DNA from: Nonomuraea sp. SYSU D8015
Lineage (GTDB): Bacteria > Actinomycetota > Actinomycetes > Streptosporangiales > Streptosporangiaceae
Length of the DNA stretch: 64,000 nt
Direction of reading: 5' to 3'
Assembly (NCBI RefSeq): GCF_008065375.1
Contig: NZ_VJYI01000014.1
Span: 1 to 64,000, forward strand
Under the pieces are notes generated by a model. The model did no database searches. It saw nothing but the letters and a program-made list of their open reading frames with translations, and was not told the DNA's origin. The position numbers and the translations under genes were made by a program. Positions 26,715-35,627 of the stretch are shown here, piece by piece. The number at the start of each line of letters is the position of its first letter. Within the stretch, counting starts at the first letter, position 1.

Positions 26715-27389
26715 ATGGGATACATGCCTCTGCTCAACTTCCGGGACGTGGCCGCGGAGACCGGCCTGCGCCCGGGCGTTCTCTACCGCTCCGCCCAGCC
26801 CCACACGCTCAGTCCCGAGGACGCCGAGCTGGTGGCGGGCCTGCGGCTCATCGCCGACCTGCGCGGCGACGACGAGCGGCTCCCCGGCGACTGGGCGACC
26901 GTCCTGGGCGGCGCCGTCAGGCACGCCCCGCTCGGCGCCGGCACGGTCTCCGCTCCGGCCCAGCTGGCCGCCCTGCCCCAGGGCCTGGACCTCGGCGACA
27001 TGTACGTCGGCCTCCTGGAGCACCGCAGGACGTGGTTCGCCGGCGTCATCGCGGAGATCGCCGACGGGCTGCCCGCGCTCGTCCACTGCGCCGCGGGCAA
27101 GGACCGCACGGGAATCGTCGTGGCGCTGATCCTCGACCTGCTCGGCGTGGACCACGAGGCCATCGTCAGGGACTACGCGCTCACCGCCAAGGCGCTGCCC
27201 GACCTGCTGCTCATGCTCGACATCACACTGCCTCCCGGAACGCCCCCTGCACTGCTGGAGGCGCCTGAGAGCGCGATGCGCACGTTCCTTGCCGCGCTGC
27301 GCGCGCAGGGCGGCGCCGGACGGGTCCTCCTGTCCAGCGGCCTGACGCCCGCGCACGCCGACCGCCTGCGGGCGGCGCTCATCCCCTGA
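26715..27389 (+). CDS. protein-tyrosine phosphatase, Y_phosphatase3 family
   Basis: A 224-residue phosphatase of the PTPLP/Y_phosphatase3 family. The P-loop HCAAGKDRTG contains the catalytic cysteine, and LNFRDVAAETGLRPGVLYRSAQPHTL-type N-terminal motifs are family hallmarks (shown here in part: NFRD, LYRSAQP). Members act on phosphotyrosine, phosphoserine or phosphoinositides. ATGs at 26715 and 26724 are both possible; neither has a strong ribosome site. Divergent from ftsK with a gap of about 125 bases. Confidence 0.88.
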   Translation: MGYMPLLNFRDVAAETGLRPGVLYRSAQPHTLSPEDAELVAGLRLIADLRGDDERLPGDWATVLGGAVRHAPLGAGTVSAPAQLAALPQGLDLGDMYVGLLEHRRTWFAGVIAEIADGLPALVHCAAGKDRTGIVVALILDLLGVDHEAIVRDYALTAKALPDLLLMLDITLPPGTPPALLEAPESAMRTFLAALRAQGGAGRVLLSSGLTPAHADRLRAALIP

Positions 27390-27706
27390 CCTCCCAGGCG
27401 GCGTCCCACGCGGCCTCGTCCTCCGGCCTGTCCAGCCCCTGTCCAGCCCCTGCCCAGCTCCAGCATGAAGCCGTTCAGCCGGTCCGGGTCGGAGCCGTAA
27501 CGCTCGTACGGACGCCGCCCGCGATGGCCACGCACCACTCGCCGGCCTGGAAGACGCCCACGTGGCCGCCCCACCACCTCCGCCGGGTCGAGCCCGCGGA
27601 AGAAGGCCACGCTGAAGAGCACGCCGAGTCGGCCGCCGCCCTCGCTCTCGGGCACGTCGAGCCACCGGAACGGGGCCAGGGCGTCCGTCGTCGTCACGCG
27701 GGCCAT
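27379..27706 (-). pseudogene. degraded DUF6461-like gene fragment
   Basis: From the ATG at 27706 the protein starts plausibly (MARVTTTDALAPFRWL, then RLGVLFSVAFFRGLDPAEVV), which resembles the N-terminus of DUF6461 proteins. After that the sensible sequence hops between frames: VGVFQAGEWCVAIAGG in one, ERYGSDPDRLNGFMLELG in the first, and LDRPEDEAAWDAAWEVRG before a stop in another. An 11-base tandem duplication (GGGGCTGGACA twice near 27432-27455) is one visible lesion. Rest of 27390-27799: nothing else recognised. The family assignment is tentative. Confidence 0.45.
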
Positions 27707-27799
27707 GGTGACAGGCCGTACCGACGATCGGCCGTCAGCGACGGATGAGAAGTAGCTCATCGGCGACTCACAGCTGCCTCATGAGGGCTCCCTAGCGTC

Positions 27800-28942
27800 A
27801 TGGGCATGACGATCACTGCGAACGCGAAGAACTGGACGGACTCGACCATGGCGACCCCCTTGGCGCTCGAGTCGGCCCTGACGGGCGCCCGCACCACGAT
27901 CATCGACCCGCGCCGCTGGCAGAAGGCGAAGGTTTCGTACACCACCCGGCATGTGGCCTGCGAGCTGGCCGACCGTCCGCGTGAGCTCTTCCTCGTCACG
28001 GGCGACGGCGTGGTGCCGCGGCCCGGCGACGTCGCCCTGGCGCGGGTGGCCGAGATCGGGCAACACACCCGGCTGGAAAGCCCGGCAAGCCGCCGGCAAC
28101 TCCTGTTTCCCGGCGACGAGATCGTCGTCGCCTACGGCCACCGCTATGCACCCGACCAGTACGAGGCGTACGTGCCGGGCGACCTGGGGCTGACCAACCT
28201 GATCGCCGCAGGCGGCGTGATCGGCACCGTGACCGCCCAGCACACCACGATGGCGCCCGCGACCACGGTGCAGCCGCTCGGCCTCCTGGCCGACGGCCAG
28301 GGTCTGCTCACCCTGGGCCGCTGCGCGCCGCTGGCCGTGCGCGAGGAGGCGCCGCCGGCCGGGAACGCCCCGGTCCTCGCGGTCCTCGGCACATCCATGA
28401 ACGCCGGAAAGTCCTTGGCTGTCGCCTGCCTGGTGCGAGGGCTCACGGCGGCGGGCCTGACGGTTGCCGCAGGCAAGGCCACAGGGACCGGCGCGGGCGG
28501 CGACCCCCGGCTGTTCACCGACGCCGGCGCCACCCGGGTGCTGGACTTCACCGACTTCGGCCTGCCGTCGACCTACCGGCTGAACCATTCCACGGCCCGT
28601 CGGCTGCTGGGCTCGCTCGTGGCGGAGTTGTCCGGGCCGGGCGTCGACGTCACCGTCGTCGAAGTGGCGGACGGCGTCTATCAGGACGAGACGGCGCGCC
28701 TGCTCGCCGACCCGCTGTTCGGGACTCTCATCGACGGTGTGGTGTTCGCCGCCGCAGACGCTCTGGGCGCCGTCGCCGGCGTCTCGGTGCTGCGGGAGGC
28801 GGGCGTGGACGTGCGCGCGGTCAGCGGCCTGCTGACCGCCGCCCCGCTCGGCGCCCGGGAGGCCGCCGCCCAGCTCGACGTGCCTGTCATCGACACCTAC
28901 GACCTGTGCGACCCTGACGTGGCGCGGTCGCTGCCGCGATGA
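27800..28942 (+). CDS. DUF1611-like P-loop NTPase, function unknown
   Basis: A 380-residue protein. Residues 190-380 form a MobB/DUF1611-type P-loop domain: GTSMNAGKS (197-205) binds nucleotide, followed by GKATGTGAGGDPRLFTDAGA, VLDFTDFGLPSTY and VVEVADGVYQDET (Glu288, Asp291). Residues 30-185 look like a separate beta-rich domain (PRPGDVALARVAEIGQH; GDEIVVAYGHRYAPDQYEAY) that I do not recognise. The P-loop family includes D-amino-acid N-acyltransferases (DgcN) and nucleotide-dependent enzymes. Its stop overlaps the start of a pseudo-ABC exporter gene (ATGA), so the pair is coupled. An internal ATG at 27848 could be the true start. Confidence 0.8.
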   Translation: MGMTITANAKNWTDSTMATPLALESALTGARTTIIDPRRWQKAKVSYTTRHVACELADRPRELFLVTGDGVVPRPGDVALARVAEIGQHTRLESPASRRQLLFPGDEIVVAYGHRYAPDQYEAYVPGDLGLTNLIAAGGVIGTVTAQHTTMAPATTVQPLGLLADGQGLLTLGRCAPLAVREEAPPAGNAPVLAVLGTSMNAGKSLAVACLVRGLTAAGLTVAAGKATGTGAGGDPRLFTDAGATRVLDFTDFGLPSTYRLNHSTARRLLGSLVAELSGPGVDVTVVEVADGVYQDETARLLADPLFGTLIDGVVFAAADALGAVAGVSVLREAGVDVRAVSGLLTAAPLGAREAAAQLDVPVIDTYDLCDPDVARSLPR

Positions 28943-30543
28943 GGGGCGGGTCGCGAGCAGGGATGCCGCGGCTGCTCGTCCGGGCGCGGCTACGGCCGTT
29001 GGCCGCTCTCGTCGGCACAGGCGTCGGACATGCCGGTCTCGCGGCCCTGACCGCCGCCGCGATGCCGGTCCTGCTGACACCCGGGCCGGTCCCGATCCGG
29101 GTGTCGGCAGCGCTCGGGCTGTTGTGCGGCGCGCTGGCACTGGGCTGGCTGAGGCAGGTCGAGCGGGTGCAGGCAGAGAGGATCGGCCAGGACTACGTCC
29201 AGGAGATCCGCAGCCGACTCGTCGGAGGCGCGCTGTCGGGTCGCGGGCCGTCGCTCGGCGTGACGATCACGCGGGCCAGCAACGACCTCAACTCCGTCCG
29301 CAACTGGATCGCTCTGGGCATCGCGCCGCTCGCGGTCGCCGTGCCCGTCGTCCTCGGCACGATGGCATCGCTGTGGGCGCTCGCGCCGGTCCTCGTGGTC
29401 CCGGTCCTCATCGCGCTGGGCGCGCTCGTCGTGGCGTTGCTGCGCCTGGCGCCGGCCACCTACGCCCGCTCTCGGGAGCTGCGTCGCCGCCGGGGCAGGC
29501 TCGCGGGCCATCTCGCCGACACCCTGGCGGCGACGGATGCCATCCGGGCGGCAGGCGGGGTCGACCGCGAGACCCGCAACGTCACCGATCTCGGCGAGCG
29601 GGTGCGGACCGCGGCCGTCGACCGGGCCGGGGCGGCCGGGTGGGTGCGCGGCGCCGCCGTCGCCTGCTCCAGCGCCGCGCTGGTCGGCGTGGCCGTGGCC
29701 GGCGTGCTCGCCGGCAGCGACGCGACGACCGTGGCGACCGCCCTGACCATCGTGGGAATCCTCGGCGGCTCGATCTCCGACCTCGGCCGGGTGGTCGAGT
29801 ACCGGCAGTCCTACCGGGCGGCGCGGCGCGTGCTGGGACCCGCGCTGGCCGGCGCCACGGCCTCCGGCGGTGCGATGAGCGCCGAGGGGCGGGAGCCGAC
29901 GCACCCTCGCGGGGAGGAGGGTCTGAGCGTCATCGGTCTCCGCGTGGACGGCGTGCCCGTGCCGGACCTCGCTGTGCCCGCCGTCAGCCGGGTGCACGTA
30001 GTGGGGTCGGCCGACCGGGTCCGCGCCGTGCTGCGCGTGCTCGGGGGGCTGGAGCGGCCAGCACAGGGCACGGTGCGGCTGGCAGGACGCGACCTGGTCA
30101 GGATCCCTCCCGAGGAGCGCAGACGGCTCGTCGGGCTCGCCTCGCCCGAGTTGGCGCTGGAGCGGGGCACCGTCGCCCGGGCCGTGCGCTATCGCGATCC
30201 CGGCCGGAGCGACCCCGTGGAGCCCGCATTGGCCGCCGTCGGTCTCGCCGAGCGGATCACTGCGCTGCCCGAGGGACCCCGGACTCGGCTGCGAGCCGGC
30301 GGTGAGCCGCTGGACCCGGCGGACCGGGCCCTGCTGCATCTGGCCCGGGCCACGTGGGGTAGCCCCTCGCTTGTGCTCGTCGACCAGGTCGATCGCCATG
30401 TCGACGCGGCGCGGCGCCGGTACGTCCGCGAACGGCTCGCGGCATGCGAGGCAGTGGTCGTCGCCGCCGCTGACGACCCCTGGACGCTCGGCGCGGCACC
30501 GGTGCGGTGGGACGTCGGACATTCCGGAGAGGCGTTCGAGTAG
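28939..30543 (+). CDS. ABC exporter-like protein with decayed ATPase domain
   Basis: A 534-residue fusion of an ABC-exporter membrane domain (helices near 20-75, 125-170, 235-275) and a nucleotide-binding fold. All catalytic motifs of the latter are lost: Walker A reads VVGSADRVRAVL (about 354-365), the signature is LRAGGEPLDPADRALLHLAR (451-470), Walker B is LVLVDQVD with Gln483 instead of Glu, and the H-loop is VAAADDP. Overall alignment to an NBD stays good, so the loss looks selected, not random. It is coupled to the P-loop NTPase gene upstream, which could supply or replace the missing ATP site. A hairpin terminator follows. Confidence 0.85.
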   Translation: MRGGSRAGMPRLLVRARLRPLAALVGTGVGHAGLAALTAAAMPVLLTPGPVPIRVSAALGLLCGALALGWLRQVERVQAERIGQDYVQEIRSRLVGGALSGRGPSLGVTITRASNDLNSVRNWIALGIAPLAVAVPVVLGTMASLWALAPVLVVPVLIALGALVVALLRLAPATYARSRELRRRRGRLAGHLADTLAATDAIRAAGGVDRETRNVTDLGERVRTAAVDRAGAAGWVRGAAVACSSAALVGVAVAGVLAGSDATTVATALTIVGILGGSISDLGRVVEYRQSYRAARRVLGPALAGATASGGAMSAEGREPTHPRGEEGLSVIGLRVDGVPVPDLAVPAVSRVHVVGSADRVRAVLRVLGGLERPAQGTVRLAGRDLVRIPPEERRRLVGLASPELALERGTVARAVRYRDPGRSDPVEPALAAVGLAERITALPEGPRTRLRAGGEPLDPADRALLHLARATWGSPSLVLVDQVDRHVDAARRRYVRERLAACEAVVVAAADDPWTLGAAPVRWDVGHSGEAFE

Positions 30544-30597
30544 GGCGTCCGTGGCCACCCCGCACCACATCGACGCCGCCACCGGGTTGGAGCCGTC

Positions 30598-30614
30598 CGT
30601 CCCCGGCGGGGACG
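30598..30614. terminator. bidirectional hairpin between pseudo-ABC and osaB
   Basis: CGTCCCC-GGC-GGGGACG is a perfect 7-bp stem in the gap between two converging genes. No T-run follows on either side, so efficiency is uncertain. Confidence 0.55.
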
Positions 30615-30640
30615 TACCCCGGTGTCGTGACGAACGGCTT

Positions 30641-31270
30641 CTAGCCGTCGACAGCCCTGACCTCGCCGGCCGGGGACGAGACCGCGTCGAAGGCGGCCTG
30701 CATGGCCGCCACCTGGTCGGCCAGCTCCTTGACGGTCTCCCGCAGCCCCTCGTCGCCGGAGACGGCCCCGGCCAGGCCCTCGAGCCGGGACTCGACCCCG
30801 CCGAGCCGCCGCGCGAAGTCCCCCAGCGCCTCGTGGTCGCGGACGAGCTGGGCGAGCAGCGTGGTCTGCTCGACCAGCACCGCGGTCTTGCGGAACAGCT
30901 CGATGAAGACCGCGACCTTGGACCTGAGCACCCACGGGTCGAAGGGCTTGGTGAGGTAGTCGACCGCGCCGACCGCGTAGCCGCGGAAGGCGGCCCCGTA
31001 GCTCGGCTCCGTGCCGGTCAGGAAGATGATGGGCACGTCGCGGGTCTGGTCGAGCCGCTTGATGTGGGTGGCGGTCTCGAAGCCGTCCATACCGGGCATG
31101 AGCACGTCGAGCAGCACGACCGCGAACTCGTACCGCAGCATCAGCTTCATCGCCTCCTGCCCCGACCTGGCCTTGAACAGCCGCTGCTGCAGCGGCCGCA
31201 GGATGGCCTCCAGCGCGACGAGACTGTCCTCGTTGTCGTCCACCAGCAGGATCTTGACCTGGCGGTTCAT
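30641..31270 (-). CDS. osaB: response regulator with coiled-coil output (OsaB-like)
   Basis: A 209-residue protein: receiver domain with Asp11/Asp12, phosphoacceptor Asp55 (VLLDVLMPGMDG), Thr85 and Lys108, then a helical, probably coiled-coil C-terminus instead of a DNA-binding domain. Its start overlaps the stop of the hybrid kinase gene (ATGA). In Streptomyces coelicolor the osmoadaptation regulator OsaB has this architecture and lies between the hybrid kinase OsaA and ftsK; that match of context and domains supports the name. Confidence 0.8.
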   Translation of the reverse strand: MNRQVKILLVDDNEDSLVALEAILRPLQQRLFKARSGQEAMKLMLRYEFAVVLLDVLMPGMDGFETATHIKRLDQTRDVPIIFLTGTEPSYGAAFRGYAVGAVDYLTKPFDPWVLRSKVAVFIELFRKTAVLVEQTTLLAQLVRDHEALGDFARRLGGVESRLEGLAGAVSGDEGLRETVKELADQVAAMQAAFDAVSSPAGEVRAVDG

Positions 31271-34200
31271 CTCTCAATCCATCTCCGCATCATCTCCAGC
31301 AGATGGTCCAGGTCCACTGGCTTGGGGACGTAGTCGGAGGCGCCGCAGGAGATCGTCTTCTCCCGGTCGCCGGGCATCGCCTTCGCGGTGAGCGCGATGA
31401 TCGGCAGGTCGGCGAACCGCGGCATCCTGCGGACTGCGGCGAGCGTCTCGTAGCCGTCCATCTCGGGCATCATCACGTCCATGAGCACGAGGTCGATGGC
31501 CTCGTCGCGCTCCAGCGCCTCGATGCCCTCCCGGCCGTTCTCGGCGTAGACGATCTCCATGCCGAGGCGGCCGAGCACGTGGGTCAGGGCGTAGACGTTG
31601 CGGATGTCGTCGTCCACGATCAGCACCCGCCGCCCCGAGAACACCTCGCCGAGCGGGCCGTCCTTGAGCCGGCCGAGCTTCGTGGCCGACCGCCACAGGT
31701 CGTCGTTGTCCAGGGCCGGCCAATCGTCCTGCGGCTGGGCGGCGGGCCGGGTCTCCACACCCTTGGGCGGGGACTGCTGCTGCCGCTCGGGCTCGCCGGA
31801 CGCGCTCTGGACCGGGCACCGGGCCGGCACGTACAGCGTGAACGTGCTGCCCGCGCCGACGACGCTGCTGGCGTGGATCTCGCCGCCGAGCAGCTGGGCG
31901 ATCTCGCTGCTGATCGACAGGCCAAGCCCCGTGCCTCCGTATTTCCGGCTCGTCGTGCCGTCGGCCTGCTGGAACGCCCCGAAGATGGCCGGGAGCTTCT
32001 CGGCGTCGATGCCGATGCCGGTGTCGCTGACGGCGAACGCCAGCACCTCGCCCTCCGGCGTGCGCCGGGTGGGATCGACCGACACCTCCAGGCGCACCTC
32101 GCCGGAGGCGGTGAACTTGACGGCGTTCGACAGCAGGTTGCGCAGGATCTGCTGGAGCCTGCGCTCGTCGTTGTAGAGCTCGCGCGGCGTGCCCGGCCGC
32201 ACCTCGATCTCGAACGTGAGCCCGCGGTCGACGGTGAGCGGCCGGAACGTGGCGTCCACGTAGTCGAGCAGCTTGCTCAGCGGCAGCTTCTCCGGCCGCA
32301 CGTCCATGCGCCCCGCCTCGATCTTGGACAGGTCGAGGATGTCGTTGATGAGCTGGAGCAGGTCGCTGCCGGCGTTGTGGATCGTGGTGGCGAACTCCAC
32401 CTCCTGCGCCGACAGGTTGCCCTCGGGGTTGTCGGCCAGCAGCCTGGCCAGGATGAGCAGGCTGTTGAGCGGCGTGCGCAGCTCGTGGGACATGTTGGCC
32501 AGGAACTCCGACTTGTAACGGGAGGAGGTGGCCAGCAGGTGGGCCTTCTCCTCCAGCGCCGCGTTCGACTTGCGCAGCTCGGCCTGCTGGCGCTGCAGCT
32601 CGTCGGAGCGGCCCTGCAGCTGCTGGGCCAGCCGCTGCGACTCCGACAGCAGCGCCTCGGTGCGGGCGTTGGCGATGATCGTGTTGATCGCGACGCCGAT
32701 GGTGACCACGAACTTGTCGAAGAAGGCCAGGTGCACGTCGCTGAACCGGCTGAACGAGGCCAGCTCGATCACGCCGAGCACGTTTTCCTCGAACACGATC
32801 GGCAGCACCACGACGCTGGCCGGCGCGGCCTCGCCGAGCCCCGTGTGGACCTTGAGGTAGCCGGGCGGCACGTCCTCCAGCAGGATGCGCTTGCGTTCGA
32901 GCGCCGCCTGCCTGATCAGCCCCGAGCCGGGGCTGCCCGGGTCGGGGAGCACGTCGTGGGCGGCGCCGTAGCCGGCGATGTAGGCCAGCGCGCCGTCCGG
33001 GGAGTCGGCGTCGGCCAGGAAGAACGCGCCGTACTGGGCGCTGACCAGCGGCGTCAGCTCGCGCAGGATGAGGTCGGCCACCTCGACCAGGTCGCGGTGG
33101 CCCTGCATGAGGCCGGCGATGCGGGCCAGGTTGCTCTCCAGCCAGTCCTTCGCGCGGGTGGTCTCGCGCAGGTTGGCGACCATGAGGTTGACGTTGTTCT
33201 TCAGCTCGGCGACCTCGCCCTTGGCCTCGACGCTGATCGAGCGGCTGAGGTCGCCCTGGGCGACGGCGCTGGCGACCTCGGCGATGGCGCGGACCTGGGT
33301 GGTGAGGTTGCCGGCCAGCTCGTTGACGTTCTTGGTGAGCCGCTCCCAGGTGCCGTAGACGCCCTCCACCTCGGCCTGCCCGCCGAGCCGGCCCTCGGAG
33401 CCGACCTCGCGGGCCACCCGGGTCACCTCGGAGGAGAACGACGACAACGTGTCGACCATGGTGTTGATCGTGGTCTTGAGCTCCAGGATCTCGCCGCGCG
33501 CGTCCACGTCGATCTTCTTCGACAGGTCGCCGTTGGCCACCGCGGTGGCGACCTGGGCGATGTTCCTGACCTGGCTGGTCAGGTTGGAGGCCATGAAGTT
33601 CACGTTGTCCGTCAGGTCCCTCCAGACCCCGCTCACCCCCCGCACCTGCGCCTGGCCCCCGAGCCGCCCCTCCGTACCGACCTCACGCGCCACCCGCGTC
33701 ACCTCGTCGGCGAACGCGGACAGCTTGTCCACCGTGGTGTTGATCGTGTCCTTCAGCTGGAGGATCTCGCCGCGCGCGTCCACGGTGATCTTCTTGGACA
33801 GGTCGCCGTTGGCGATGGCGGTGGTGACCATGGCGATGCTGCGGACCTGGCTGGTCAGGTTGGAGGCCATGAAGTTCACGTTGTCCGTCAGGTCCTTCCA
33901 GACCCCGCTCACCCCCCGCACCTGCGCCTGGCCCCCGAGCCGCCCCTCCGTACCGACCTCACGCGCCACCCGCGTCACCTCGTCGGCGAACGCCGACAAC
34001 TGCCCCACCATCGTGTTGACGGTGTCCTTCAGCTGGAGCATCTCTCCCTTCACGTCCACGCTGATCTTGCGGCTGAGGTCGCCCTGGGCGACGGCGGTGG
34101 CGACCTGGGCGATGTCGCGGACCTGCTCGGTGAGGTTGGAGGCCATGAAGTTCACGTTGTCGGTCAGGTCCTTCCAGACCCCGCTCACCCCCCGCACCTG

Positions 34201-35310
34201 CGCCTGACCCCCGAGCCGCCCCTCCGTACCGACCTCACGCGCCACCCGCGTCACCTCGTCGGCGAACGCCGACAACTGCCCCACCATCGTGTTGATGGTG
34301 TCCTTGAGCTGGAGGATCTCGCCCCGCGCGTCCACGGTGATCTTCTTCGACAGGTCGCCGTTGGCCACCGCGGTCGTCACCTGGGCGATCGAGCGCACCT
34401 GGGTGGTGAGGTTGGAGGCCATGAAGTTGACGTTGTCGGTGAGGTCCTTCCAGGTGCCGCTCACACCCTTGACCTCGGCCCGTCCGCCGAGCTGTCCCTC
34501 CGTGCCCACCTCGCGGGCCACCCTGGTCACCTCGCTGGCGAACGCCGACAGCTGGTTGACCATGGTGTTGACGGTCAGCTTGAGCTCCAGCAGCTCGCCG
34601 GTGGCCTCGACCGTCACCTGCCTGGTCAGGTCGCCCCTCGCCACGGCTGTGGTCACCACCGCGATGTCGCGCACCTGGGCGGTCAGGCGCGCGGCCATGG
34701 CATTGACGGCCTCCGTGACGTCGCGCCAGCTGCCCGACATGCCCTGCACCTTGGCGCGGCCGCCCAGCCTGCCCTCCGTGCCGACCTCCCGCGCGACCCT
34801 GGTGACCTCGCCGGAGAACAACGCGAGCTGGTCGACCATGCGGTTGACCGCCTTGCCCATGAGCCGCAGCCCACCGCGCAGCGGCCGGTTGTCCTCCTGC
34901 AGGTCGACCCGCTGCGACAGGTCGCCGTCGGCGACCGCGTTGAGCACCCGCGTGGCCTTGGCCGCGGGGATGACCAGAGCGTCGATCAGCGAGTTGACCG
35001 CGTTGACGTTGACCGCCCAGCTCCCGGTGCCCGGGCTGGGGCTCAGCCGCTCGTCCAGCCGCCCTCGCCTGGCCACTTCGCCGCGCACCCTGGCCAGCTG
35101 GACGGCCAGGTGCTCGTTGCGGTCCACGACCTGGTTGAACGCGGTCGCGAGCTCGGCGAGGAACGGATCGTCCGACACGTCGAGACGCTGCCTGAAGTTG
35201 CCGTCACGCAGGCCCTGCAGGGCCACGAGCAACGGCCGGAGATCCGCCTGGTGGAGCGGTCCAGCCGTGCAAGAAGGTTCGAGCTGCACAGCTAATGCGG
35301 CGTTCTTCAC
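31267..35310 (-). CDS. osaA: multi-HAMP hybrid histidine kinase (OsaA-like)
   Basis: About 1,347 residues, no membrane helix. N-terminal array of HAMP-type units, six of them nearly identical 92-residue modules beginning [13 protein letters not shown]; then a GAF domain, a coiled coil, HisKA ([12 protein letters not shown], His near 940), HATPase ([33 protein letters not shown]) and a receiver ([13 protein letters not shown]). The architecture is like the fungal Nik1 osmosensor class and Streptomyces OsaA. It is transcribed first and coupled to osaB. The GTG at 35310 is a guess from where conserved sequence begins; longer in-frame starts exist. Confidence 0.82.
33570..34500 (-). repeat. 276-bp tandem HAMP-coding repeats in osaA
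   Basis: GGTTGGAGGCCATGAAGTT recurs at 33582, 33858, 34134 and 34410, exactly 276 bases (92 codons) apart. Stretches of about 100-130 bases around each are almost identical at DNA level, including silent positions, pointing to recent duplication or gene conversion. Confidence 0.85.
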
Positions 35311-35627
35311 TGCGTCACCGCCGTGGAGACCCAGGCCGTCAGGCCCGGGGGAAGACGGCGGCCCTCCGCTCCCACCGATTCCAGGGTCGGGGGCTGAGGA
35401 AGCACCCCGAAGTAGGTCCACCGTCTTGCGTCAAAGGTAGCCATCTGGACACACCTCCCAAAGTGGCGGCTCGGGCTGCTCGACACGGGCCTGCCGGCGA
35501 CACCGCACCTCAGGCCCACTCCTCCTCGAGAAAAGAGCCGTTGACACGATGTGGCAGTTTGATCACTCTCAGTATGCCAAACTGGGGGTCGTCAATACCT
35601 GCATTTGGCGATGTTCTAGGACGCAGA
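35311..35627. promoter_or_regulatory. osaA/osaC divergent intergenic region
   Basis: This gap must hold the promoters of osaA (left) and osaC (right). TTGACA is at 35541-35546. An inverted repeat CAGTTTG (35555-35561) / CAAACTG, about 15 bases apart, follows. I see no well-spaced -10 box and no gene. Roles of both elements are inferred. Confidence 0.4.

Follow-up and report, generated by a model that had tools for sequence, protein, structure and literature searches.

We identify a widespread, uncharacterised family of bacterial gene pairs in which a P-loop enzyme, here called NTP, is followed by an ABC exporter-fold protein, and we find that the exporter has lost its ATP motifs in several lineages and that the first example seen keeps its predicted fold. 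Our leading explanation, tentative and somewhat short of an even call, is that NTP is an enzyme with a dedicated exporter, and that this exporter became ATP-independent and probably still serves the NTP product without ATP. The pair was first seen in the window, the whole 64,000-nucleotide stretch analysed from the 12.4-Mb genome of the actinomycete Nonomuraea sp. SYSU D8015. Here NTP (380 amino acids; 27800-28942, plus strand; assigned from its open reading frame, Pfam, alignment, an AlphaFold model and structure matches) and an ATPase-dead ABC exporter-fold protein (534 amino acids; 28939-30543, plus strand; assigned from its open reading frame, an AlphaFold model and structure matches) share a 4-nucleotide overlap, ATGA, between the end of the first gene and the start of the second, exactly as a preliminary description of this DNA had it.

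The pair is a real conserved unit and not a chance neighbourhood, because it recurs across phyla and because about half of all NTP-ABC pairs share the same 4-nucleotide overlap at the start of the ABC gene. When genomes of 84,980 species were scanned, 228 relatives of NTP came up, and the best 80 were kept; these come from Actinobacteria, alpha-, beta- and gammaproteobacteria, cyanobacteria, Desulfobacterota, Chloroflexota and Bdellovibrionota. An ABC gene lies directly 3' of NTP in 60 of these 80 loci (one of them, L087, carries another kind of ABC protein), and several of the remaining 20 stop at a contig edge. NTP falls above the cut-off of no family in Pfam or NCBIfam, so the pair has no known name, and PADLOC gave no match among the window proteins. 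Side observations in the wider family include a distant NTP subfamily (about 30% identity; L029-L034) that adjoins an M20 peptidase gene instead of an ABC gene, with a flavin-reductase-like gene also beside NTP in L029, and an NTP relative of 42% identity in a phage record from human faeces (MT835675.1:34750-35811).

In sequence searches the window ABC protein aligns with ABC exporters over its full length, although in Pfam only ABC_membrane is recognised (5e-9), with ABC_tran below threshold (0.0098). Its AlphaFold model (pLDDT 90.4, 40 relatives) contains six long transmembrane (TM) helices followed by a complete nucleotide-binding domain (NBD) fold, the arrangement of type IV, exporter-type ABC transporters; the whole chain superposes on CydDC (516 residues, Z 25.2), and its NBD on that of LipB (211 residues, 2.4 Å, Z 24.3). 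What has gone from the type IV pattern is every ATP motif. Aligned with 49 intact partners, which keep at least three of the four motifs (Walker A, signature, Walker B Glu and H-loop), the window protein reads GSADRVRA in place of the Walker A GPNGAGKS (30004-30027), LDPADR in place of the signature LSxGQR (30310-30327), LVLVDQV with Gln for the catalytic Glu in Walker B (30370-30390), and Asp for the H-loop His at residue 512 (30472-30474; all plus strand). The partners that we class as dead keep none of the four. Both halves of the original claim, loss of all four motifs and retention of the exporter fold with its membrane helices, are thus borne out. Further changes lie within the membrane: position 130 in TM3 is Arg or Lys in 46 of 49 intact partners and Pro in all eight dead actinobacterial partners, including the window (29326-29328, plus strand), and position 241 in TM5 is Asp or Glu in 43 of 49 and uncharged (Val, Ala or Leu) in the same eight, with Val in the window (29659-29661, plus strand). 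Loss of these charges in the window's clade indicates that the old substrate path has changed and may be gone. The dead actinobacterial NBDs also have conserved stretches of their own (ERGT, TxLRxGGEP).

Even the otherwise intact partners depart from the usual pattern. The Q-loop glutamine is normally near-universal in ABC ATPases; this column holds Pro in 45 of the 49 (for example L042 and L024), and the sole Gln belongs to L087, whose ABC protein is not of this family.

In whole-chain fold the window protein resembles TmrAB, TM287/288, MsRv1273c/72c and CydDC (Z up to 25.2), and degenerate halves are common among heterodimeric exporters (PMC7756269). With an intact NBD fold, in a genome with many other exporters, it might therefore be a dead half whose partner is an intact ABC half from another locus, the two giving a transporter with one degenerate site, as in TmrAB or MsRv1273c/72c. 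We consider this improbable, since Walker A and nucleotide binding normally survive in a degenerate half, and in the heterodimers named above one site works and the other usually binds nucleotide, whereas every motif is lost here. No adjacent ABC gene supplies a linked partner half, and the TM-domain (TMD)-only relatives described below have no NBD with which to pair. We saw no second intact family member in the genomes with dead partners: the exporters checked were generic or fused two-half proteins, reaching about 200-320 bits per half with the family profile, where intact members reach 600-800.

Dead partners occur in both Actinobacteria and alphaproteobacteria. The actinobacterial ones are those of the window, of five genomes that belong to a single other family (L142, L173-L176), of Arthrobacter and of Corynebacterium; the alphaproteobacterial ones are L080 and L088 (Novosphingobium-type), L082, L098, L100, L104 and two Paracoccus plasmids (L240, L242). 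Intermediate and more extreme forms also exist: Streptomyces partners keep Walker A and Walker B and have lost the signature and His, and in three Novosphingobium the ABC gene ends after the TM domain (311-325 residues), the NBD being deleted. Because most partners are intact, including those of Nocardiopsis relatives from the host's own family, the comparison of sequences marks the dead state as derived. The preliminary description had treated the dead ATP site as the defining feature of the pair and had named intact Walker motifs in close relatives as one of the observations that would tell against it; such relatives exist within the host's family, and the dead site is a feature of some members of a mostly intact family.

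On the NTP tree, the distribution of dead and intact partners takes four changes, and the AU test rejects a common origin of the losses in Actinobacteria and Paracoccus (p = 3e-5), the dead Paracoccus copies being sister to an intact Sulfitobacter copy. In a first set without Paracoccus, a single origin of dead NBDs was not rejected (p = 0.096), and the TM-domain tree of that earlier set takes two changes; all of these trees come from quick searches. The data support at least two independent losses, and the NTP tree suggests four.

Among five related species with dead partners, Nei-Gojobori dN/dS values are 0.20-0.32 for NTP, 0.24-0.35 for the TMD and 0.21-0.35 for the dead NBD. Intact Nocardiopsis gives similar values; dS is moderately saturated in these pairs, so the figures are rough. 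Since constraint on the dead NBD matches that on the rest of the system (0.2-0.35 across five species), the substitution pattern indicates purifying selection and not decay. Stops and frameshifts, sought as signs of random decay, were seen in none of the dead ABC copies, and the three signs proposed beforehand for a genuine system (genes that stay together, the same motif losses across genera, and low dN/dS) were all found. In L080 and L088 the NBD is relaxed, with dN/dS 0.40 where the TMD has 0.19; sister species have lost the NBD and retain a TMD at 0.15-0.19, and two loci (L059, L092) have no ABC gene beside NTP; these cases could be taken for an exporter on its way to loss. Set against uninterrupted reading frames and a dead state common to five related species at low dN/dS, such decay is the least probable of the readings that we weighed.

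In the host, the pair sits in the genome as a discrete block: seven same-genus genomes have contiguous flanks where the window has 3264 additional base pairs (27392-30655, by flank comparison), and this insertion holds just NTP and the ABC gene. The empty site in these seven genomes, the absence of NTP from the other same-genus genomes searched, and the finding that the nearest relatives of NTP (57-61% identity) belong to a different family of the class together make horizontal arrival of the pair likely. The edges of the insertion share the 7-nucleotide string CCTGACC; apart from this and weak repeats, no tRNA or insertion sequence was seen there to mark a mobile element. The start of the insertion, upstream of NTP (27392-27799), overlaps a minus-strand open reading frame (27173-27760) that looks like a gene remnant. 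Beyond the other edge, at 31267-35421 on the minus strand, lies a 1384-residue histidine kinase with many repeated HAMP-like segments and a receiver domain, which has a match at the search cut-off in 54 of 55 same-genus genomes.

NTP itself carries the intact P-loop GTSMNAGKS that had been reported for it (residues 197-205; 28388-28414, plus strand). Across 67 homologues its invariant residues include G197, M200, G203 and K204 of the P-loop, K226 of a K-x-T-G motif (28475-28477, plus strand), T228, G229, D235, D249, E288, D291 and E297. The AlphaFold model (pLDDT 92.9, 67 relatives in the alignment) predicts a SIMIBI P-loop domain at residues 185-380, preceded by a beta-rich N-terminal half (residues ~30-175) in which Pfam recognises nothing at E-values up to 1. 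The closest structure to the P-loop domain is dethiobiotin synthetase (Z 17.2, 2.9 Å over 183 residues), and K226 aligns with the KPVQTG lysine of the Mycobacterium tuberculosis enzyme; by sequence, MobB and dethiobiotin synthetase are the nearest solved chains, with weak E-values (0.003-0.02). The description of NTP as DUF1611-like holds for the fold and P-loop sequence of this domain, which resembles the DUF1611 proteins 2g0t (Z 16.3) and 2obn (Z 15.8) and the N-acetyltransferase DgcN (7xrj, Z 14.5), but not for family membership, since the Pfam score for DUF1611 (PF07755) is 16 bits against a gathering cut-off of 25; NTP differs from these proteins also in its unmatched N-terminal half and its recurrent ABC partner. 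From the group of dethiobiotin synthetase, CobQ and MobB, which supplies its best structural match (dethiobiotin synthetase) and the aligned catalytic-type lysine, it is set apart by the additional N-terminal domain and by the conserved motifs GTSMNAGK and EVADGL. Searches of Pfam and NCBIfam down to E = 1 gave no BioD family for NTP, only cobyric acid synthase (15 bits against a cut-off of 273), and no biotin or cobamide gene context was seen at NTP loci. Judged by its predicted fold and conserved residues, NTP has more the look of an enzyme acting on small molecules than of a motor.

These properties bear on the suggestion that NTP acts in place of the dead ATP site, or powers or gates it. 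Translational coupling and co-inheritance of the two genes speak for such a link, but at positions conserved in at least 90% of the NTPs with intact partners we found no compensating change that two dead clades have in common. As NTP is the same with a live or a dead partner, the proposal is not supported, and the small-molecule-enzyme fold of NTP and its occurrence equally with live ABC proteins, with an MFS transporter or with no ABC protein at all make it very improbable.

The gene neighbourhoods point to a module of metabolism and transport. Proteobacterial operons add an alpha/beta hydrolase and a porin (Porin_O_P), sometimes with an Asp/Asn hydroxylase-like gene, and in two loci the C-terminus of the ABC protein is fused to an alpha/beta hydrolase domain (L070:7706-10471, L114:10211-12694). 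In two proteobacteria (L096, L101) an MFS transporter takes the place of the ABC protein, which indicates that the membrane step can run without ATP; some NTPs have no transporter nearby. The Corynebacterium locus L036 has two NTPs and then the ABC gene, and its relative L059 lacks both the second NTP and the ABC gene; a siderophore link drawn from a Corynebacterium neighbour gene was limited to that genus and was dropped.

We propose that the module comprises a small-molecule enzyme, NTP, and a dedicated ABC exporter, to which Proteobacteria add the cytosolic hydrolase and the outer-membrane porin. NTP would resemble dethiobiotin synthetase, CobQ or MobB in spending ATP, here on the activation or conjugation of a small molecule, and the ABC protein would move or otherwise handle that molecule. 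In the window's lineage the exporter would no longer use ATP, its catalytically dead NBD being kept as a structural or regulatory platform beneath the TM helices, and the membrane domain would probably still serve the NTP product as a gradient-driven or facilitative transporter, with NTP not the driver. By analogy, the TMD kept alone in Novosphingobium, the MFS replacement, the Q-loop Gln already missing from intact partners and the SbmA precedent all favour ATP-free transport; the loss of the conserved charges R/K130 and D/E241 in the window's clade argues against it.

That loss, together with that of the ATP motifs, instead suits a pseudo-transporter, in which the dead ABC protein is a non-transporting membrane anchor, allosteric partner or receptor for NTP. 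Sensing instead of transport is possible, and a dead NBD as constrained as the TMD, and as NTP, fits a scaffold or sensor too. A set of genes for an ECF sigma factor, an anti-sigma factor and an S8 protease, divergent or adjacent, adjoins 11 of 12 alphaproteobacterial loci with dead, TMD-only or absent ABC proteins (L050, L058, L067, L080, L082, L088, L092, L098, L100, L240, L242) and none of seven intact ones (two on short contigs), counts that come from related and not independent loci. This association is absent in Actinobacteria, however; Novosphingobium keeps the TMD while the NBD, where docking would naturally occur, erodes or has been deleted; and replacement by an MFS protein argues that transport is the role retained. 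We regard the pseudo-transporter as a credible but lesser possibility, with ATP-independent transport ranked slightly ahead.

The closest precedent for ATP-free working is SbmA/BacA (SLiPT), which has the ABC-exporter TM fold, uses the proton gradient instead of ATP, and is thought to derive from a YddA-like ABC transporter after loss of its NBD (PMC13316013). The window protein shares the TM fold but keeps the NBD fold, so that an absent NBD, characteristic of SbmA/BacA, is found only in the Novosphingobium relatives; it has no Pfam match to the SbmA/BacA family and does not belong there on that evidence. No SbmA entry appears among the 50 structure matches listed for the window protein, which carries no weight against the likeness. 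The present family differs further in that several stages of loss coexist in one operon family, paired with a P-loop enzyme.

Use of ATP is what defines an ABC exporter. We think it nearly an even call that, in this one operon family, an ABC exporter has been converted several times to an ATP-independent membrane protein, with all stages side by side: intact (the Q-loop Gln already gone in members that keep the other motifs), partly degenerate, dead with a selected NBD, NBD deleted, and replaced by MFS. If so, the family would provide a natural series for ABC exporters turning into secondary transporters or pseudo-transporters, and would bear on how primary transporters turn secondary, for which SbmA/BacA is the main described example and intermediates are largely missing. 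NTP in its own right represents an uncharacterised P-loop family that extends from Actinobacteria to cyanobacteria. Repeated loss of ATP use under selection, with the same enzyme alongside, allows one to ask what role an NBD plays besides ATP use.
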